From positions 1-33,640 of the forward strand of contig DAOUYK010000005.1 in NCBI GenBank assembly GCA_030666145.1: 33,640 nt of DNA, in the 5' to 3' direction. Shown here piece after piece: positions 21,704-33,640 of the stretch. Source of the stretch: Mycolicibacterium sp. (lineage in GTDB: Bacteria; Actinomycetota; Actinomycetes; Mycobacteriales; Mycobacteriaceae). The position numbers and the translations under genes were made by a program. Below the pieces are notes generated by a model, which searched no databases, had not been told where the DNA came from, and saw only the letters and a list, made by a program, of their open reading frames with translations. How positions within the stretch are numbered: position 1 is the stretch's first letter; the number at the start of each line of letters is the position of its first letter.

Positions 21704-23191
21704 TCAGGCCGGGCGCGACTCCCGCGCCGCGGCCCGACCGAACACCATTGACTCTTCGATCCGGTCGAACCGGTGATCGATGACGTCGAGCACATAATTG
21801 TGTCGTACATTCCATGGCCTGTGGGTGCCCGACTTCGGTAACGCGTGCGGCGAACGCTTGATGTAGCCCGCCTGCAGATCGAAGGCCGGCTTTTCGGTGA
21901 TGGGGGCGTCGCCGCGATGCGGGTAAGCGTAAGTATACCCGTGGGCGCCCATGTACGCCAACAACTTCGCGAACGCCTTTGCCGTCATGTCGGCGCGCAA
22001 GGTCCACGACGCGTTCGTGTACCCGATGCACCACGCCACATTCGGCACATCCTCGATGAGGTACTCCTTGTAAGCGAAGCGGTCGGTGGGATCGACCTGG
22101 ACGCCGTCGATGACCAGGCGGATGCCGCCGAGAGCCTGAAGCTGCAGCCCGGTCGCCGTGACGATCACATCGGCGTCCAGGCGAGCACCTGAGGTCAGCA
22201 CGATGCCCGTCTCATCGACGTGGTCGATGTTGTCGGTCGTCACCTCGGCGCGCCCCGAGCTGATCTGATCGAAAAGATCATGGTCGAGAATGAGGCACAT
22301 CCGTTGGTCCCAGGGGTCGTACTTGGGTTTGAAGTGCAGGTCAACGTCGTAGCCTTGAGGCAGCGCGGCCATGGTCTTGCTGCGGATGAGGCGGCGCCCG
22401 AACCGCGGAGCCTTGCGGAACATGAAGTAGGTCAGTACGTGGAACGCGGCATTCCGGAACCGCACCACCGAGTGGGAAACCCTAGGCGGCAATATCTTTC
22501 GAATAAAGTCGACCATCGGGTCGATGCGCGGCATGGACATCATGTATGTAGGCGATCGCTGAAGCATGGTGACGTGCTCGGCCTTCTCGGCCAGGGCCGG
22601 GATGAGGCTGATTGCACTGGCTCCGCTGCCGATCACCACCACGCGCTTGCCCGAGTAATCGAGGTCTTCGGACCAAAACTGGGGGTGCACCACCTGTCCG
22701 CCGAACCTTTCGATACCCGGGAACTCAGGCTGGTAGGGATGGTCGTAGTCGTAGTACCCGGTGCCGAAGAACAAGAACCTGGCGCGGTAGGCGCGCGGCG
22801 AGCCGCCGTGCTCGACATTCACCGTCCAGGTGTCGGTGGCCGAGTCCCATTCGGCCGACTTCACGTACGTGTCGAACTGCATGTGTTGGTCGATGCCGTG
22901 CTTGTGCGCTGTCCTCGCCAGGTAGTCGCGGATGTACTCGCCGTCGGCGACGTTCTCCTGCCGCCGCCAGGGCTCCCAGGGGAACGACAGGGTGAAGATA
23001 TCACTGTCTGAGCGGATGCCCGGGTAGCGGAACAAGTCCCAGGTGCCGCCGATGCGGGACCGACGCTCGAGGATGCGGTAAGTCAGCTGGGGATTGCGCT
23101 CCTGGATGCGGTAGGCGGCGCCGATCCCGGAGATGCCCGCACCGATGATCAGGACGTCGGAATAGTCGGTCCCCAGATATTGGTCCTGCAT
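21704..23191 (-). CDS. EthA-like flavin-containing Baeyer-Villiger monooxygenase
   Basis: BVMOs insert one oxygen next to a ketone using FAD and NADPH. The 495-residue product has the FAD site GAGISG (17-22), GGTWDLFRYPGIRSDSD, the BVMO fingerprint FGGQVVHPQFW (163-173, FxGxxxHxxxW) and the NADP site GSGAS (188-192). It closely resembles M. tuberculosis EthA (489 residues) as I recall it, but no ethR neighbour is visible, so it may be a paralog. AAGGAG lies 7 bases before ATG 23191. It is 40 bases downstream of the LLM oxidoreductase gene and probably in one operon with it. Confidence 0.92.
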   Translation of the reverse strand: MQDQYLGTDYSDVLIIGAGISGIGAAYRIQERNPQLTYRILERRSRIGGTWDLFRYPGIRSDSDIFTLSFPWEPWRRQENVADGEYIRDYLARTAHKHGIDQHMQFDTYVKSAEWDSATDTWTVNVEHGGSPRAYRARFLFFGTGYYDYDHPYQPEFPGIERFGGQVVHPQFWSEDLDYSGKRVVVIGSGASAISLIPALAEKAEHVTMLQRSPTYMMSMPRIDPMVDFIRKILPPRVSHSVVRFRNAAFHVLTYFMFRKAPRFGRRLIRSKTMAALPQGYDVDLHFKPKYDPWDQRMCLILDHDLFDQISSGRAEVTTDNIDHVDETGIVLTSGARLDADVIVTATGLQLQALGGIRLVIDGVQVDPTDRFAYKEYLIEDVPNVAWCIGYTNASWTLRADMTAKAFAKLLAYMGAHGYTYAYPHRGDAPITEKPAFDLQAGYIKRSPHALPKSGTHRPWNVRHNYVLDVIDHRFDRIEESMVFGRAAARESRPA

Positions 23192-23231
23192 CGGTAATCT
23201 CCTTCGGTCCGTCCACGTACCACGATATGGG

Positions 23232-24266
23232 TCAGCTCCTCAGCGCGTCGACAATCTCGCTCAATGATTCCGCCGTGATCGGGCCTGGCTGATAGAGACA
23301 GATCCGGTCCGAGACTCCGTCCACGCGGTCCCGAATGTGGGCGGTAATCTGAGTCGGCGTGCCGCATGCGGCGATCGTGTGCAGCCCATCGTCGTCGATA
23401 ATCCGCACCATCTCCTCCCAACGGCCCTGCTTGGACATCGCGTTGAGTTCAGGCTGCAGGTCCCCCCAGCCGTGCAGGTCGAGCACCGGCCGGTAGGCGG
23501 GTGTGGAACCGTAAAAGGACAGCAAGCGTCGTGCAGACATATGGTCGGGGTCTTCATCGGCTAGCGAGACGATGATCTCGGGTACCACCGAGAACCTGTC
23601 GCGGCCTCGGGCGGAAGCCGCGAGCCCGGCGTCTACGTTGGGCATCGTCACCTCGTGCAGGAATCTCTTCGAACCGAACGGCATCACCAGCAGCCCGTCG
23701 GCGACCTCGCCCGTCATCCGGGTCAGCCGCGGACCCAGCGCACCCACGAAGATCGGCGGCGGTACGAATTCGGCCCGCGGGACGAATGTCGGCGTCATCA
23801 ACGTGTGCCGGTAGTACTCCCCCCGGAAGTTCAGCCGCTCCCCGGTCGTCCAAGCGGCGAAGATCGCCCGAAGAGCGCCGATCAGCTCAGCCATCCGGGC
23901 GACCGGTCGGTCGAAATCGGCGCCGTAACGCTTCTCGATCTGGGTGCGAATCTGCGTGCCCAGCCCCAGTGTGAACCGCCCACCGCTGAGCAGTTGGTGG
24001 TCGACAGCCTGGTGGGCGAGGTGAATCGGATTACGTGGAAACGCGATCGCGACGTTGGTCATCAGATCCAGTCCGCCCATGCCCGCCGCCAGCGTCAGCG
24101 GGGTAAACACATCGTGGGGGCCCTCGAAGGTGAACACGCCGCTCGCCCCGGCCTCACGAAGCGCCCGCGCCCGCTCGGCTGCGTCAATGGGCCCGAAGAG
24201 CGCCGTGAACACCTGCACAACCTGCCAGCCTAGTGTGGGTTCTACGCGCAACACGACCTTATGCAT
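23232..24266 (-). CDS. F420-type luciferase-like (LLM) oxidoreductase
   Basis: The 344-residue protein has the luciferase-like TIM-barrel patterns of the TIGR03617-type F420 group: [60 protein letters not shown] and [12 protein letters not shown]. Such enzymes usually transfer hydride with deazaflavin F420; substrate unknown. The N-terminus is slightly uncertain: ATG 24266 has no good ribosome site (GTAGGGGG abuts it), so it may be leaderless or start a few codons later. It is first of a leftward pair with the BVMO and divergent from aofH, with a 43-base shared gap. Confidence 0.85.
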
Positions 24267-27695: not shown

Positions 27696-27732
27696 TCGCT
27701 GCGTGGGGTATTTGCGTCACCGCACGATATAT

Positions 27733-27751
27733 TTTGGTGTTCGACACCGAA
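27733..27751. promoter_or_regulatory. Palindrome resembling a diverged DosR-type box
   Basis: TTTGGTGT-TCG-ACACCGAA has 8-bp arms with one mismatch. The ends TT.GG and CC.AA recall the DosR consensus TTSGGGACTWWAGTCCCSAA, but the spacing is one base shorter and the core differs. It lies about 25-40 bases before the Acg-type remnant, a gene family controlled by DosR in M. tuberculosis. It could be a different regulator's site. Confidence 0.35.
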
Positions 27752-27774
27752 CGACGATTCGAGTGCATTGACAG

Positions 27775-28648
27775 GTGGAGGTGAGCCTTCTGGTGGACAG
27801 GTTCCCCGATACAGCGACGCTTGAGACCGCGTTGAGCATCGCTTCACATGCGCCTTCAGTCCGGAATTTGCCGCCCGGGCGTTGGCGGGTCGGTCGTGAC
27901 GGCATAGGCCTCTACGTTGACCCGAGTCGCCAACTCGGAGACACCGAATCCGACCGGCGTGACGCCCTTCTCAGCTGTGGCGCCGTGCTGATCACTGCGT
28001 CGTGGCGCTGGCCGCAGCGGTTTGGCAAGCCCGGGTCCGCCGATTCCCCGATCCCGAGGACGCCAGCCATTTGGCGTTGATCGAATTGGTGGAGCTTCCT
28101 CCTAACCCCGTCAGCATGGAATTGGCCACCGCCATCCCTCGACACAGGGCTGACCGCCGCCGCTACAGCACGCGGTCGATCCCGGCCGGCACACTAGAGT
28201 CGTTCTACATCCGCGCCGCGCGGTCCAAAGTGACGCTGGGCGTAGTTTCCAAAATCCGATGGGCCCGACTCGACGAAGGCGACGTCACGCTTCAGTACGG
28301 CGGCACAGCTGGCAGCGCAAGCGGCCCGCACGCCGACGATGCCGCGATGTTGGTGCTGGGCACGTATGCCGATAACGACCTCATGCGGCTACGGACCGGT
28401 GAGACGTTGAGCCAAATAGTCTGTCGGCCACGGCTATGGGATTGGCCACATGCCCACTGACGGAGCCGTTGCGCAACACCCGCAATCGTCTGACGCTGGC
28501 CTGCGAGGTGTTTGATGAGGAGAATTTCCCCCAAACGCTGATCCGTCTGGGCTGGCCGCCCTCCAACGGCGACCCTCTGGCGCCTGTCGAGCGGCGCACG
28601 GTCCGCGAGGCCACCACTTGGGACCAAGACAACCGCCACTCGCCTTGA
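27775..28648 (+). pseudogene. Acg/Rv3131-type nitroreductase, frameshifted
   Basis: Three frames joined in order give an Acg-family protein: FPDTATLETALSIASHAPSVRNLPPGRWRV and LLSCGAVL (frame 1), then HCVVALAAAVWQARVRRFPDPEDASHLALIEL through DDAAMLVLGT (frame 2), then ATAMGLATCPLTEPL...PQTLIRLGWPP (frame 3). One base appears lost after 27990 and one after 28421. About 60 residues expected between VSKIRWARL and the DDAAMLVLGT strand are also missing. Acg proteins bind FMN and are DosR-regulon members in M. tuberculosis; this copy is dead. Bases 28649-28881 hold no gene and are comparatively AT-rich. Confidence 0.85.
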
Positions 28649-28881
28649 CGCTTAAACGCCCGGTTCTTTGAAACTGGAATCGAGGATGCTCAGTTGTCCG
28701 GTTGCGGCGCGCCGCCAATCGCGTCTTCTCGCTGTGTTTCCCCACCTTGGGGCCAAGGTTCCCTGAGAGGAATATCACAAGACAAATCTCCGATTATCAC
28801 AAAGTACGCCACCAATCTAGAGCTCGCTGGACTGCTGCCCTAAAGACAGACGATATTCAAGCGCCGTGACCGAGCCCCGCT

Positions 28882-29667
28882 CTAGGTGATCCACTCCGGT
28901 TGCTTCTCGACGTCGACCGCGGCGAAGTCCTTGTGGCCCAAGCCGGCCAGTGTGCCGCCATCAACCACAAACTCCGAGCCCGTAGAGAAGCTCGACTCGT
29001 CGCTGGCCAGGTACACCACCAGATTGCTGACCTCCTTCGGCTGCGCGATACGCCCCAGCGCGCTTTGGAAGATATCCTCAGGAACCCAATCAGCCACCAT
29101 CGGTGTCTTCACCAGACCAGGGTGGATGGAGTTCACCCGAATCCCGAACTGCCCCAACTCCACGGCGGTGGATTTCGTGAGGCCACGGACTGCGAACTTC
29201 GTCGCGGTGTAGCCGTGGCTGGCCACAGTGCCGGCCATACCTTCGATCGAGGAGATATTGATGATCGACCCTTCACCGGCCTTCTTCATCTCCGGCACCA
29301 CGGCGCGGATTCCCAGAAATACACCGGTGAGGTTGATGTCGAGAATACGATGCCATTCCGAGAGCTCGAAATCCTCCACCGTGCCGATGTTAAGGATTCC
29401 GGCATTGTTGACCAGCACGTCGACCCCGCCGAACTCGCCAAGTGTGCTGGCCACCGCCCCGTCCCAGTCTTCGGTGCGGGTCACATCGAGATGGACATAG
29501 CGGGCACCGTCACCAAGTTCGGTGGCCAGCGCTTCGCCTTCGGTGTCAAGAATGTCGCCGCACACCACTCGCGCGCCGTGGGCGATCATCTCTCGCGCAT
29601 GCGATGCGCCCATCCCCCGAGCTGCGCCACTGATGAGAGCGACCTTGCCGGCCAACCGTCCAGACAT
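28882..29667 (-). CDS. fabG3: Hydroxysteroid dehydrogenase-type SDR (FabG3-like)
   Basis: The 261-residue short-chain dehydrogenase has the Rossmann motif SGAARGMGASHA, NNAGILN, the catalytic Ser in IINISSIEGMAG, YTATK (Tyr and Lys) and the C-terminal STGSEFVVDGGT. It is very close to my memory of M. tuberculosis Rv2002/FabG3, characterised as a 20-beta-hydroxysteroid dehydrogenase; the steroid substrate here is inferred. ATG 29667 has AGGAG 5 bases upstream; the longer track ORF enters the BVMO gene. It follows the BVMO by 14 bases and is last in the operon. Confidence 0.92.
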   Translation of the reverse strand: MSGRLAGKVALISGAARGMGASHAREMIAHGARVVCGDILDTEGEALATELGDGARYVHLDVTRTEDWDGAVASTLGEFGGVDVLVNNAGILNIGTVEDFELSEWHRILDINLTGVFLGIRAVVPEMKKAGEGSIINISSIEGMAGTVASHGYTATKFAVRGLTKSTAVELGQFGIRVNSIHPGLVKTPMVADWVPEDIFQSALGRIAQPKEVSNLVVYLASDESSFSTGSEFVVDGGTLAGLGHKDFAAVDVEKQPEWIT

Positions 29668-29681
29668 GAGTTCTCCTGTCG

Positions 29682-31670
29682 TCATGAGATTTTCAGATCG
29701 TAATCGCCGGGGTTCGGGCTTTGCGTCCACTTCCAGTAGTCGACGATGCGCCAGGCGAACAGCGTTGGCAGTTCGCCCGCCGAGTTTTTGTAGTAGCTGC
29801 TGGTGACGGCCGGGTGAGAGTAGACCATCGTCTTCAAGCGGGCCTGACTGCGGCGATCGTAGTCGGCGCACACCTCGGCCTTCGGCGTCGCCGAGGATGC
29901 TCCGGAGGCGAGCACCATATCGATACACCCGAGCACATAGCGCATCTGGCACTCGGAGTTGTAGATCAGGCTGGCGCCATTGACGGCGTTGGTGCCTGGT
30001 CCGAACACGCAATAGAGGTTCGGGAAATCTGTGACCGTCACCCCCAAGTAGGCATAGGCGGCATCACCCCAGGCTTCGTTCAACCCAATTCCGTTGACCC
30101 CGCGTACATCGATGGGACCGAGCTGGTGATTAACATCGAAACCGGTGGCCCACAACAGAACATCGGCTGGTCGATATACGCCGTTCACGTCGGTGACACC
30201 GTGCGCAGTAATCTCGGCGATGCCATCGGAGATCACTTCGACGTCGTCGCGCTGCAAGGTGATCAGCCACGTACCGTTGTCCTGCAGAGTGCGCTTGCCC
30301 ATCGGTGGATGCGTCGGCGTCACCTTGGCTAGCAGTTCCTCGTCGGTGGTGAACGCCCGCATCCAGGCGACGAACATCTCGCGGATCGCCTGATTTCCGG
30401 CACTGACCGATAGCCCCCCGTTGTCCCACTCAGGGTCAATCGTGATCTGCTCGTCGAGCGCGTCGGCGATCGGCCACCATGTCACGAACCGCAGCCATCG
30501 CCCGTAGTACGGCAGATGGCGGGTGGCCCATCGTGCCCCCGAGCCAACCGCCGCGTGATAGTTGACGTTGGGTGCCATCCACTGCGCGGTGCGTTGGTAG
30601 ACGTCGACGTGCGCCGCGGTGTCGGCTATCGCCGGTACGAGTTGAAATCCGCTAGCACCCGCTCCGATGACGGCGACGTTCTTATCGGCCAGGTCGACGG
30701 CGTCGTCCCAGTCCGCCGTGTGAAACGATGGGCCGTCGAAATCCTTGGCACCCTCGATATCCGGGATCACCGGATTGCTGAACTGGCCGACCGCGCAGAT
30801 CAGTCCGCGGGCGGTCAGCGTCTCGGAGTCGCTGTCTGTGGAGTCTGTGGGCCGGATCTTTACCTGCCACGCGGAGGTCGACTCGTCCCAGGTGGCGCCA
30901 CTGACCACGGTGTCGAATCGGACATGATCGGCGATCTCGTAGCGCGCCATCACGTCCTTGAGGTACCCCAGGATCTCGGGTTGTGTTGCGTAGTGATGCT
31001 CCCAGTGGTCGGTGGGCTCAAACGAATACGTGTAGTACTGGCTGGCGATGTCAACACGGCATCCCGGGTAACGATTGGCCAGCCAGGTGCCGCCCACCCC
31101 CGATTGCTTCTCGACGATGATGAACGGGATACCAGCTTCTTTGAGCTTGATTCCCGCCAGTAACCCGGACTCTCCGCAACCGATGACGATCACCGGGAAG
31201 CCGGCGCGCTGCTCAGCAGTCGAGGTCAGTAACGGGCCGTTCTGATCGACGTCGGTGAGGCGTAGATCGGCGGCGATGTAGTCGATGAACTCGTCAGTGA
31301 CCTGGCCGGCAGTTACGACGTTCAACATCTCCCGCAGTTGGCGCTCGTCGGGGATGAACGGCGGCGGGCACCCTCTGTCACGGTAGTCACGGATGACCTC
31401 GAAGGCTCGCTCGCGCACGGCCTGCTTGTCTGGTTCGCTCATCCCGCCCTGTAGATCCAACGCGATGAGCATGAAGGGACCGGGCAGTTCGTCGAGGATG
31501 CCGACATCGCCGGTCATGTGCACCATCGACATCAGCAACGCCGGCACGCTGGCCTCGTCGATTGCCGCGCGGATTACGTCGTCGGCATCGTCGAACGGCA
31601 GACCCGTCAGCCGTGCAAGTTCCCGGTCGCGCACCACGGCACCGGTGACATGAGGCATGCAGCTCACCAT
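29682..31670 (-). CDS. HAPMO-like Baeyer-Villiger monooxygenase
   Basis: The 662-residue protein has about 155 N-terminal residues before the flavin fold, as in 4-hydroxyacetophenone-type BVMOs. Visible are GCGESG (FAD, 164-169), GGTWLANRYPGCRVD, the fingerprint FDGPSFHTADW (311-321) and GAGASG (NADP, 336-341). It would oxidise a ketone to an ester or lactone. The start is ATG 31670 (MVSCMPHVT) or 31658; neither has a strong ribosome site. It lies 22 bases after the hydrolase stop and 14 before fabG3, so all three are probably one transcript. Confidence 0.92.
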   Translation of the reverse strand: MVSCMPHVTGAVVRDRELARLTGLPFDDADDVIRAAIDEASVPALLMSMVHMTGDVGILDELPGPFMLIALDLQGGMSEPDKQAVRERAFEVIRDYRDRGCPPPFIPDERQLREMLNVVTAGQVTDEFIDYIAADLRLTDVDQNGPLLTSTAEQRAGFPVIVIGCGESGLLAGIKLKEAGIPFIIVEKQSGVGGTWLANRYPGCRVDIASQYYTYSFEPTDHWEHHYATQPEILGYLKDVMARYEIADHVRFDTVVSGATWDESTSAWQVKIRPTDSTDSDSETLTARGLICAVGQFSNPVIPDIEGAKDFDGPSFHTADWDDAVDLADKNVAVIGAGASGFQLVPAIADTAAHVDVYQRTAQWMAPNVNYHAAVGSGARWATRHLPYYGRWLRFVTWWPIADALDEQITIDPEWDNGGLSVSAGNQAIREMFVAWMRAFTTDEELLAKVTPTHPPMGKRTLQDNGTWLITLQRDDVEVISDGIAEITAHGVTDVNGVYRPADVLLWATGFDVNHQLGPIDVRGVNGIGLNEAWGDAAYAYLGVTVTDFPNLYCVFGPGTNAVNGASLIYNSECQMRYVLGCIDMVLASGASSATPKAEVCADYDRRSQARLKTMVYSHPAVTSSYYKNSAGELPTLFAWRIVDYWKWTQSPNPGDYDLKIS

Positions 31671-31692
31671 ACAGATCGCCGTAGGTGGATGA

Positions 31693-32580
31693 TCAAACCT
31701 CGGCCCCGTCGCGCCGACTCAGGAAATCCAGGACAGCATCGGCGAATAGGTCATTGCGGTCGCCGGCCACCATGTGCCCGGCACCCTCGACGTCGACGAA
31801 CTCGATCTGCGGAAAACGCGCGAGGAATTCCGTGGCCCGCTCGCGGCTAACGAGGTCGCTCACCTGTCCACGCACCAGCAGCATGGGGATACCGTCGGTG
31901 ATGATCGCGGCCACCGCCGCATGCAGTCGATCAACATCGGTCGCCTCGATAGGCGGCATCGCGGCTGTGCCGTCGATGAACTGCGGGTCCCAATGCCAAT
32001 ACCAGCGACCTCCCCTGCGGCGCAGGTTGTTTCGCAGGCCATCGAAATCCACGGGGCGTGGTCGGTGTGGGTTGAATTCCGCGATCAAGTCGGCGACCTC
32101 GTCGAGCGAACCGAACCCGTCGACCATCTTGTCGGCCATGAAGGCATGTATCCGTTCCGCACCCGACGGATCCATGTCCGGCACGATGTCAACGAGCACG
32201 ATGGCCGCAACGATCCCGCGGGCCAACTCGCCCGCCAACAGCATCGATGTGAGCCCACCCAGCGAGGCCCCGACCAGCACCGGGTTTGGCGGCAGTTGAT
32301 TGAGGATCTCCCGGACGTCGGCGGCGAAGCTAGACACCCGGTAGTCACCGCGGGCCGACCAGTCCGATTCCCCGTGCCCCCGCATATCCACGGCGACCGA
32401 TTGCCACCCACGTTCGGCCACCGCTGCGGCCGCTCTGGCCCAGGAGCGACGAGTCTGTCCGCCGCCGTGCAAGAACACGACCGCTCGGGCACCGGGATCG
32501 CCCTGCCGGTCGGCGGCGATGCGCACGCCTTCGTGACCGTCGGTGAGGAACTGCTGCGGCATCGATGGCACAGACGTCAT
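31693..32580 (-). CDS. Alpha/beta hydrolase (probable esterase/lactonase)
   Basis: The 295-residue product shows FLHGGGQTRRSW (oxyanion region), DMRGHGESDW, the nucleophile elbow VGASLGGLTS, and a late His in EGAGHMVAGDR. It is the first gene of the hydrolase-BVMO-SDR operon, so hydrolysis of the ester made by the BVMO is the simplest proposal. Start ATG 32580 gives MTSVPSMPQQF; the ribosome site is weak (CCGAGG adjacent). The track ORF to 33003 runs over the divergent SDR fragment. Confidence 0.88.
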   Translation of the reverse strand: MTSVPSMPQQFLTDGHEGVRIAADRQGDPGARAVVFLHGGGQTRRSWARAAAAVAERGWQSVAVDMRGHGESDWSARGDYRVSSFAADVREILNQLPPNPVLVGASLGGLTSMLLAGELARGIVAAIVLVDIVPDMDPSGAERIHAFMADKMVDGFGSLDEVADLIAEFNPHRPRPVDFDGLRNNLRRRGGRWYWHWDPQFIDGTAAMPPIEATDVDRLHAAVAAIITDGIPMLLVRGQVSDLVSRERATEFLARFPQIEFVDVEGAGHMVAGDRNDLFADAVLDFLSRRDGAEV

Positions 32581-32683
32581 CCTCGGATGGTAGAAGCTGC
32601 ATTGTCCAGACCAGCGCGAGGCCGGCCCGTCGCCCGAGCGCGTGTTCACTCTCGCCGCCGCGAGGGTAAGCAATACTGAGCTG

Positions 32684-33160
32684 ATGAACGATCTTGCCGG
32701 CAGAGGTGTTCTAGTGACCGGTGCCGCTTCGGGTATCGGCCTGGCCACGGTCAATCGACTCCTCGCCGAGGGTGCCACCGTGGTCGGTGTCGATGTTGCT
32801 CGCGAAGCGCCACAGGGTCCTTTGGCAGATTTCGAGTACCGCGGGGCCGATGTGCTCGACGCCGCGGCCGTCGAGCAGGCAGTAGCAGCGACAGTCACGG
32901 CGGCAGGCCGGCTCGACGGCGTGGTCCATTCGGCGGGCGTGGGTGGCGGTGGCCCGATCCACCTGCTGCCTGACGAAGAATGGGACCGCGTACTCGACCG
33001 CAAGATTCGGCTGACACACCGATGCGGGAGACGTAATCACCATGCTCTGGCCCTACCAAACACACGAAGTCAGCACCGAGCTCGACGAGAAGCGCGGCAT
33101 CCAGGTTACAGACATGCGACCACGGCGCCGGAAACTACGGCAGACGGTGACCAGCTCTAA
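32684..33160 (+). pseudogene. Truncated short-chain dehydrogenase
   Basis: The first ~105 residues are a good SDR start: GVLVTGAASGIGLATVNRLLAEGATVVGVDVAREAP (Rossmann), VHSAGVGGGGP in place of NNAG, and DEEWDRVLD. Where other SDRs continue with VNLxGxFL, the frame changes to RKIRLTHRCGRRNHH and no catalytic Ser, Tyr or Lys region follows. The break lies near base 33000. It is divergent from the hydrolase operon with a 103-base gap. It looks cut by an insertion or deletion. Confidence 0.7.
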
Positions 33161-33437
33161 CCTCACGCTGGCCTTGCTCTTACTCGCCGCCCTATTCGCC
33201 GCCGCCGCGCTCCTGCTAGCTGCAGCACCGACCGCTAGTGCCGGCCCCAGCCTTCAAGAAGTCTGCACCGGCAAAAACTGGCCGCCGGCCAGTTCGCTCA
33301 TGACCGCGGTCTGCGACACCATCACCACGCACCCCGAAGGCCCGTGCGAGGACCGGCCCTGGACGGGCTGGGACTGCCGAACCCTGGGCGATCGCCAGTG
33401 CGGTGGAGCCCTCGGTCGCAGGGGCGTCCTCAGGTGA
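33114..33437 (+). CDS. Small exported Cys-containing protein (unknown)
   Basis: From ATG 33114 the frame encodes 107 residues: a basic start MRPRRRKLR, a hydrophobic stretch LTLALLLLAALFAAAALLLA and an AxA-type cleavage site around TASAG. The mature part has five Cys (EVCTGKN, TAVCDT, GPCEDRP, WDCRT, RQCGG). The end GGALGRRGVLR looks unlike the rest, and another frame (33403-33609, DPYGRAWACRTANGWGQLYG) continues with similar composition, so a frameshift is possible. I do not recognise the family; similar short secreted proteins occur on actinobacterial mobile elements. The ribosome site is weak. Confidence 0.45.
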   Translation: MRPRRRKLRQTVTSSNLTLALLLLAALFAAAALLLAAAPTASAGPSLQEVCTGKNWPPASSLMTAVCDTITTHPEGPCEDRPWTGWDCRTLGDRQCGGALGRRGVLR

Positions 33438-33477
33438 CGTCGGCGGCCGGTGCGCTGCCGAGTCGCAGCGGATCGAT

Positions 33478-33561
33478 CCGTACGGGCGGGCGTGGGCGTG
33501 CCGTACGGCGAATGGTTGGGGCCAGCTGTACGGCGGGTGGTTGGCGGGCCCGCCCGTACGG
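33478..33561. repeat. CCGTACGG palindrome array inside a 14-bp inverted repeat
   Basis: CCGTACGG occurs at 33478, 33501 and 33554, with a one-base variant CTGTACGG at 33526. The outer copies belong to a perfect 14-bp inverted repeat, CCGTACGGGCGGGC (33478-33491) and its complement (33548-33561). The middle copies lie in a 17-mer direct repeat with period 25 (33503-33519, 33528-33544; two mismatches). Possible roles are a protein-binding array, a transfer or replication site, or a hairpin. The window ends soon after, with no gene I can support beyond 33437. Confidence 0.6.
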
Positions 33562-33640
33562 TGCCTCCGACGCACCCCCGTCGCCCACGCCCGATACGGC
33601 AAATCCTAACGACAATGCAAACCAATGTCGACAAGGGCTA

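Follow-up and report, generated by a model that had tools for sequence, protein, structure and literature searches.

The cluster described here probably encodes a catabolic pair, a Baeyer-Villiger monooxygenase (BVMO) and a FabG3-type dehydrogenase (SDR), together with an adjacent esterase, the whole being expressed as two units; from the sequence evidence, we place the probability of this reading at roughly 0.55. The cluster lies in a window of 33,640 nucleotides that is one whole contig of a 3.2-Mb mycobacterial genome. Three open reading frames occupy positions 28882 to 32580 of its minus strand and are arranged, in the order of transcription, as hydrolase, BVMO, and SDR (Table 1). Their coordinates were re-derived and agreed with the strand, span, and gaps given in the first-pass annotation, with 22 nt between the end of the hydrolase gene (31693) and the BVMO ATG at 31670 and 14 nt between the end of the BVMO gene (29682) and the SDR ATG at 29667. 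Relatives have ATG or GTG at the position of 31658 and some of them lack the earlier ATG, so the ATG at 31658 is the likely true BVMO start, which lengthens the first gap to 34 nt. Two other explanations were rejected: chance or mis-called reading frames by the conservation and dN/dS values of the genes (below), and an assembly artefact behind the linkage by the identical junctions found in independent genomes.

Table 1. Features of the cluster, in window coordinates
Feature	Position	Strand	Remarks
Predicted -10 box TACCAT	32587..32592	-	6 nt before hydrolase ATG; leaderless-type promoter
Alpha/beta hydrolase, 295 aa	31693..32580	-	Ser nucleophile in GASLG; nearest solved structure Rv0045c
Conserved element GATCATCCAC (GAYCATCCAY)	31685..31694	-	Overlaps hydrolase stop; altered half of palindromic operator (predicted)
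Predicted -10 box TATGGT of BVMO-SDR unit	31666..31671	-	7 nt before ATG 31658
Type I BVMO, HAPMO-like N-terminal extension	29682..31670	-	Motifs, fold; likely true start 31658
Shine-Dalgarno AGGAG of SDR gene	29673..29677	-	Conserved
SDR, FabG3/Rv2002 type, 261 aa	28882..29667	-	NADH-type Asp38, Ser140-Tyr153-Lys157

The three enzymes

The BVMO is 658 to 662 aa long, extension included, and carries two GxGxxG Rossmann motifs of the form that marks a type I BVMO (GxGxx[G/A]), the first of them at residue 164. The FxGxxxHxxxW fingerprint is intact (FDGPSFHTADW), the second motif of the class, [A/G]GxWxxxx[F/Y]P[G/M]xxxD, is matched by GGTWLANRYPGCRVD, and the key positions were invariant across 17 homologues. 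Residues 1 to 155 had no Pfam domain match and were mostly helical in the structure model. This stretch of approximately 155 aa corresponds to the extension of roughly 140 to 150 residues before the FAD Rossmann motif that we took as the mark of a HAPMO-like enzyme. The class, intact fingerprint, and HAPMO-like architecture proposed from the first reading are thus borne out by the motifs and the N-terminal extension. When the model was used in a fold search, steroid, cyclohexanone, and phenylacetone monooxygenases scored nearly equally, so the fold does not indicate the substrate. The partner genes of the hap cluster differ from those of the present cluster. The likeness to HAPMO of Pseudomonas fluorescens ACB, a type I BVMO whose N-terminal extension is likewise large (PMC10028610), was drawn from the description of that enzyme.

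The SDR matched M. tuberculosis Rv2002 (PDB 1nff) over its full length with 77% identity (E 3.6e-129), confirming the FabG3 similarity noted earlier. The residues named for Rv2002, Asp38 for NADH and the Ser140-Tyr153-Lys157 triad (PMC3023750), were all kept and were invariant in the SDR alignment. The SDRs found at the equivalent chromosomal place in relatives (the slot) nevertheless formed one clade separate from Rv2002 with support of 100/100, and Rv2002 itself grouped with the SDR of a different locus (L097), so these SDRs are not its same-clade orthologues. Because the clade is distinct, the steroid specificity of Rv2002 cannot simply be transferred to the SDR of the window.

In the hydrolase, the GASLG serine, as nucleophile, is followed further downstream by an Asp and a His. 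The solved structure nearest to the hydrolase model is that of an M. tuberculosis esterase, a match that is indicative at best because confidence in the model was low (pLDDT 69).

Linkage of the genes across relatives

All three genes are under purifying selection, with dN/dS values of 0.07 to 0.22 (about 0.1), and in other Mycolicibacterium species the entire block is found again at the slot; selection and recurrence at the same place together indicate that the cluster is more than chance. Linkage was counted among about 40 fetched BVMO orthologues of at least 65% identity. A FabG3-type SDR gene lay directly downstream of the BVMO gene in 15 of these loci and the hydrolase gene directly upstream in 7 of the 15, with the complete trio present in these 7 fetched loci, in one further genome (G027), and in the window. 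Species with the trio include Mycolicibacterium vaccae and M. parafortuitum. The slot BVMOs formed one clade (support 100), and several variants of the slot were found: BVMO and SDR without the hydrolase (L038, L040, L041, and L070), the SDR alone in three genomes (G019, G045, and G055), and the hydrolase with neither partner in one (G037). The pair was also found in tandem outside the slot, in Aldersonia (L063), L066, M. intermedium (L074), and Gordonia (L078), and the BVMO-SDR junctions of the slot loci and of L063, L066, and L074 had a Shine-Dalgarno sequence and a short gap or overlap. A distant parallel occurred in an Oceanospirillaceae MAG (L077; BVMO 41% and SDR 48% identical), and in four genomes a second BVMO family, 46 to 52% identical, had a 59 to 62% identical SDR that was either adjacent or no farther than about 3 kb away. 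The tandems inside and outside the slot, the slot variants, and the second family show that this type of BVMO is repeatedly paired with a FabG3-type SDR and that the hydrolase is optional. By gene order, the BVMO and SDR are a conserved core unit, to which the hydrolase is a looser partner that can be separated from the pair. Since it is missing in four loci and solitary in G037, the hydrolase may serve another pathway, and the earlier description of the three genes as a self-contained set is not supported. The arrangement had also been expected to be new; this is so relative to M. tuberculosis only. Plasmid searches returned only distant BVMOs (less than 60% identity) with varied neighbours, including one locus (L163) in which hydrolase, SDR, and BVMO genes occurred together, and a search of a viral collection found no relative.

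Within the window, the nuo operon is followed by genes resembling Rv3168-Rv3171c, a numbering that except for Rv3169 follows from gene order, and then by the cluster. The window could be aligned with four close relatives on both sides of the cluster. In relatives, one flank holds a zinc alcohol dehydrogenase gene and usually a convergent LuxR-family regulator, and the other holds a divergent SDR gene. The regulator of most relatives is missing from the window (27696-28881), and the closest relative (L037) has at that position a gene for a 1177-aa adenylation-reductase resembling carboxylic acid reductase. On the other side, the syntenic relatives cease to match at 32998, within the divergent SDR gene, so that this gene is truncated. 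Over the last 640 bases of the contig, parts of the sequence are similar, at 73 to 82%, to other contigs of this genome, and the stretch from 32998 to 33640 may be either a rearrangement or a chimeric contig end.

Predicted promoters and transcription units

Scans for sigma-70-type promoters and for terminators gave counts at the level of shuffled sequence, so a test for TANNNT boxes was used in their place. Boxes of this kind, like leaderless starts, are standard features in M. tuberculosis (PMC3898074). A TANNNT box stood 6 to 7 nt before the hydrolase start in 7/7 cluster loci (0.7 expected) and in 14/15 other loci (1.5 expected), the expectation being about 0.1 per locus. Each of the 12 aligned slot loci had the BVMO box, among them four without the hydrolase, and across the BVMO family a box at 6 to 7 nt was found in 41 of 52 loci versus 4.8 expected from shuffles. 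Before the SDR gene, none of 14 loci had one (0.3 expected). The loci are relatives of one another and a few places were entered twice, so these counts are not of independent events.

Upstream of many BVMO genes the -10 box formed one half of a palindrome, ACCATAC-N14-GTATGGT, which is probably an operator. The partner half, with at most one mismatch, was present in 21 of 38 entries versus 2.6 expected, a count in which L111 and L113 repeat loci already included. In the slot loci the spacing is kept and the left half is altered to GAYCATCCA. The palindrome overlaps the BVMO -10 box in L009-L013 and L049-L076, often with a TetR gene nearby.

The hydrolase gene and the BVMO-SDR pair are probably separate transcription units, with read-through possible; we predict two units because the predicted BVMO promoter is kept in relatives without the hydrolase and the hydrolase has a predicted promoter of its own. 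The first-pass annotation had instead proposed one transcript and a self-contained three-step pathway; all three genes would then form one operon transcribed from the promoter of the hydrolase. The genes share a strand and are separated by short gaps, no terminator-like site was found between them in the scan, the trio is kept together in the loci counted above, and transcription from the hydrolase promoter may quite possibly read through. A single operon would have one promoter ahead of its first gene and none inside, however, and here a conserved internal BVMO promoter independent of the hydrolase is predicted, while the hydrolase is separable from the BVMO-SDR pair in both directions. We therefore consider the single operon rather unlikely.

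Proposed function and substrate

Sequence comparison shows which genes the cluster holds, their motifs and linkage, and the promoter-like elements; from these we infer its transcription, reaction order, co-regulation, and substrate as follows. The BVMO and SDR genes would be read together from the leaderless-type promoter just ahead of the BVMO gene. With NAD+, the SDR would convert a bulky secondary alcohol into a ketone, and the NADPH-dependent BVMO would insert oxygen into the ketone, yielding an ester or a lactone. This product would be cleaved to an acid and an alcohol by the hydrolase, whose gene would be transcribed chiefly from the promoter in front of it. The most likely role of the cluster is to oxidise a bulky substrate, either a secondary alcohol or a ketone, for which a 20-keto or other polycyclic (steroid-like) compound is our leading guess.

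The cluster is real, conserved, and of an ordinary catabolic kind. Modules of alcohol dehydrogenase, BVMO, and esterase are textbook knowledge, and the cluster belongs to that kind. The acetone module of Gordonia TY-5 and the cyclohexanol (chn) modules carry out the same three-step chemistry with different enzyme subfamilies. In M. tuberculosis, the mymA operon (Rv3083-Rv3089) groups a BVMO gene with hydrolase and dehydrogenase genes, but its order and members differ, and MymA is about 495 aa long without an N-terminal extension, unlike the BVMO described here. Most of the Rv2002-type genes examined in other mycobacteria had no BVMO neighbour.

A C20 steroid is a plausible substrate on sequence grounds, and a substrate-specific form of the catabolic pair, compatible with the main reading, would be the removal of the pregnane (C21) side chain to feed ring degradation. 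A 20beta-hydroxy steroid would be converted to the 20-keto form by the SDR, to the 17-acetate ester by the BVMO, and to the 17-alcohol by the hydrolase. FabG3/Rv2002 is a 3alpha,20beta-HSD (PMC3023750), cleavage of progesterone by a BVMO, to testosterone acetate, is proven in Caenibius tardaugens (PMC12239570), and a fabG3 homologue of N. simplex was induced 13.7-fold by cortisone acetate (PMC7807495). The genome of the window encodes HsaD, which scored 508 bits against a cut-off of 400, and a KstD-like protein, whose 700 bits fall short of the cut-off of 789; mineralisation of a steroid product would thus be feasible. The LuxR-family regulator that adjoins the cluster in most relatives also fits, since one is found in the pdc cluster of C. 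tardaugens, but this regulator is missing from the window itself. Against this pathway stand the distinct clade of the SDR and a BVMO no nearer to steroid monooxygenase than to other BVMOs. In addition, the window contained 0 matches to TNNAACNNGTTNNA, the KstR operator motif, so that membership in the KstR regulon is not indicated. The step from FabG3 similarity to a steroid is accordingly weakened although the similarity itself stands, and we regard pregnane side-chain removal as unlikely. That the cluster is dedicated to removing the two-carbon pregnane side chain in mycobacteria outside the KstR regulon, and would be the first such mycobacterial gene set, is more doubtful still.

The present cluster resembles pdc (PMC12239570) in that a type I BVMO, whose product is an ester needing hydrolysis, sits in a small cluster with a LuxR-family regulator nearby, here in the relatives only. 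It differs in that pdc has a luciferase-like monooxygenase (LLM) and a TetR regulator with neither SDR nor esterase, whereas the BVMO described here has a HAPMO-like extension and accompanies a FabG3-type SDR; no LLM or TetR gene was found adjoining the cluster. Elsewhere in the window, in the region 21704-24266 of the minus strand, a second FMO/BVMO-type gene encodes 495 aa with intact fingerprints and has steroid monooxygenase as its best PDB match. It lies 40 nt from a gene for an F420-dependent luciferase-like oxidoreductase (TIGR03617), a pairing of type I FMO and LLM that recalls pdc.

The substrates might instead be aromatic or polycyclic ketones (oxy-PAHs or aryl ketones) and not steroids. 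The cluster occurs in M. pyrenivorans and M. vanbaalenii, which are known from PAH degradation, and HAPMO acts on aryl ketones. In Sphingobium AntQ-1, pairs of BVMO and hydrolase are induced during growth on anthraquinone (PMC9836352). The genes of the window that were examined, however, included none for aromatic degradation next to the cluster, which also occurs in species without a known use of PAHs, and such substrates seem to us unlikely.

If the steroid reading of the catabolic pair is true, genes would be named for mycobacterial removal of the pregnane side chain, a process for which the literature that we found suggests only the luciferase-like enzyme MSMEG_4862 (PMC12239570). Whether or not that reading holds, the single-operon view of the cluster is corrected to one of two predicted units with the BVMO-SDR pair as conserved core, and the cluster provides a clear-cut pair of enzymes that lends itself to testing, together with a conserved predicted promoter-operator.
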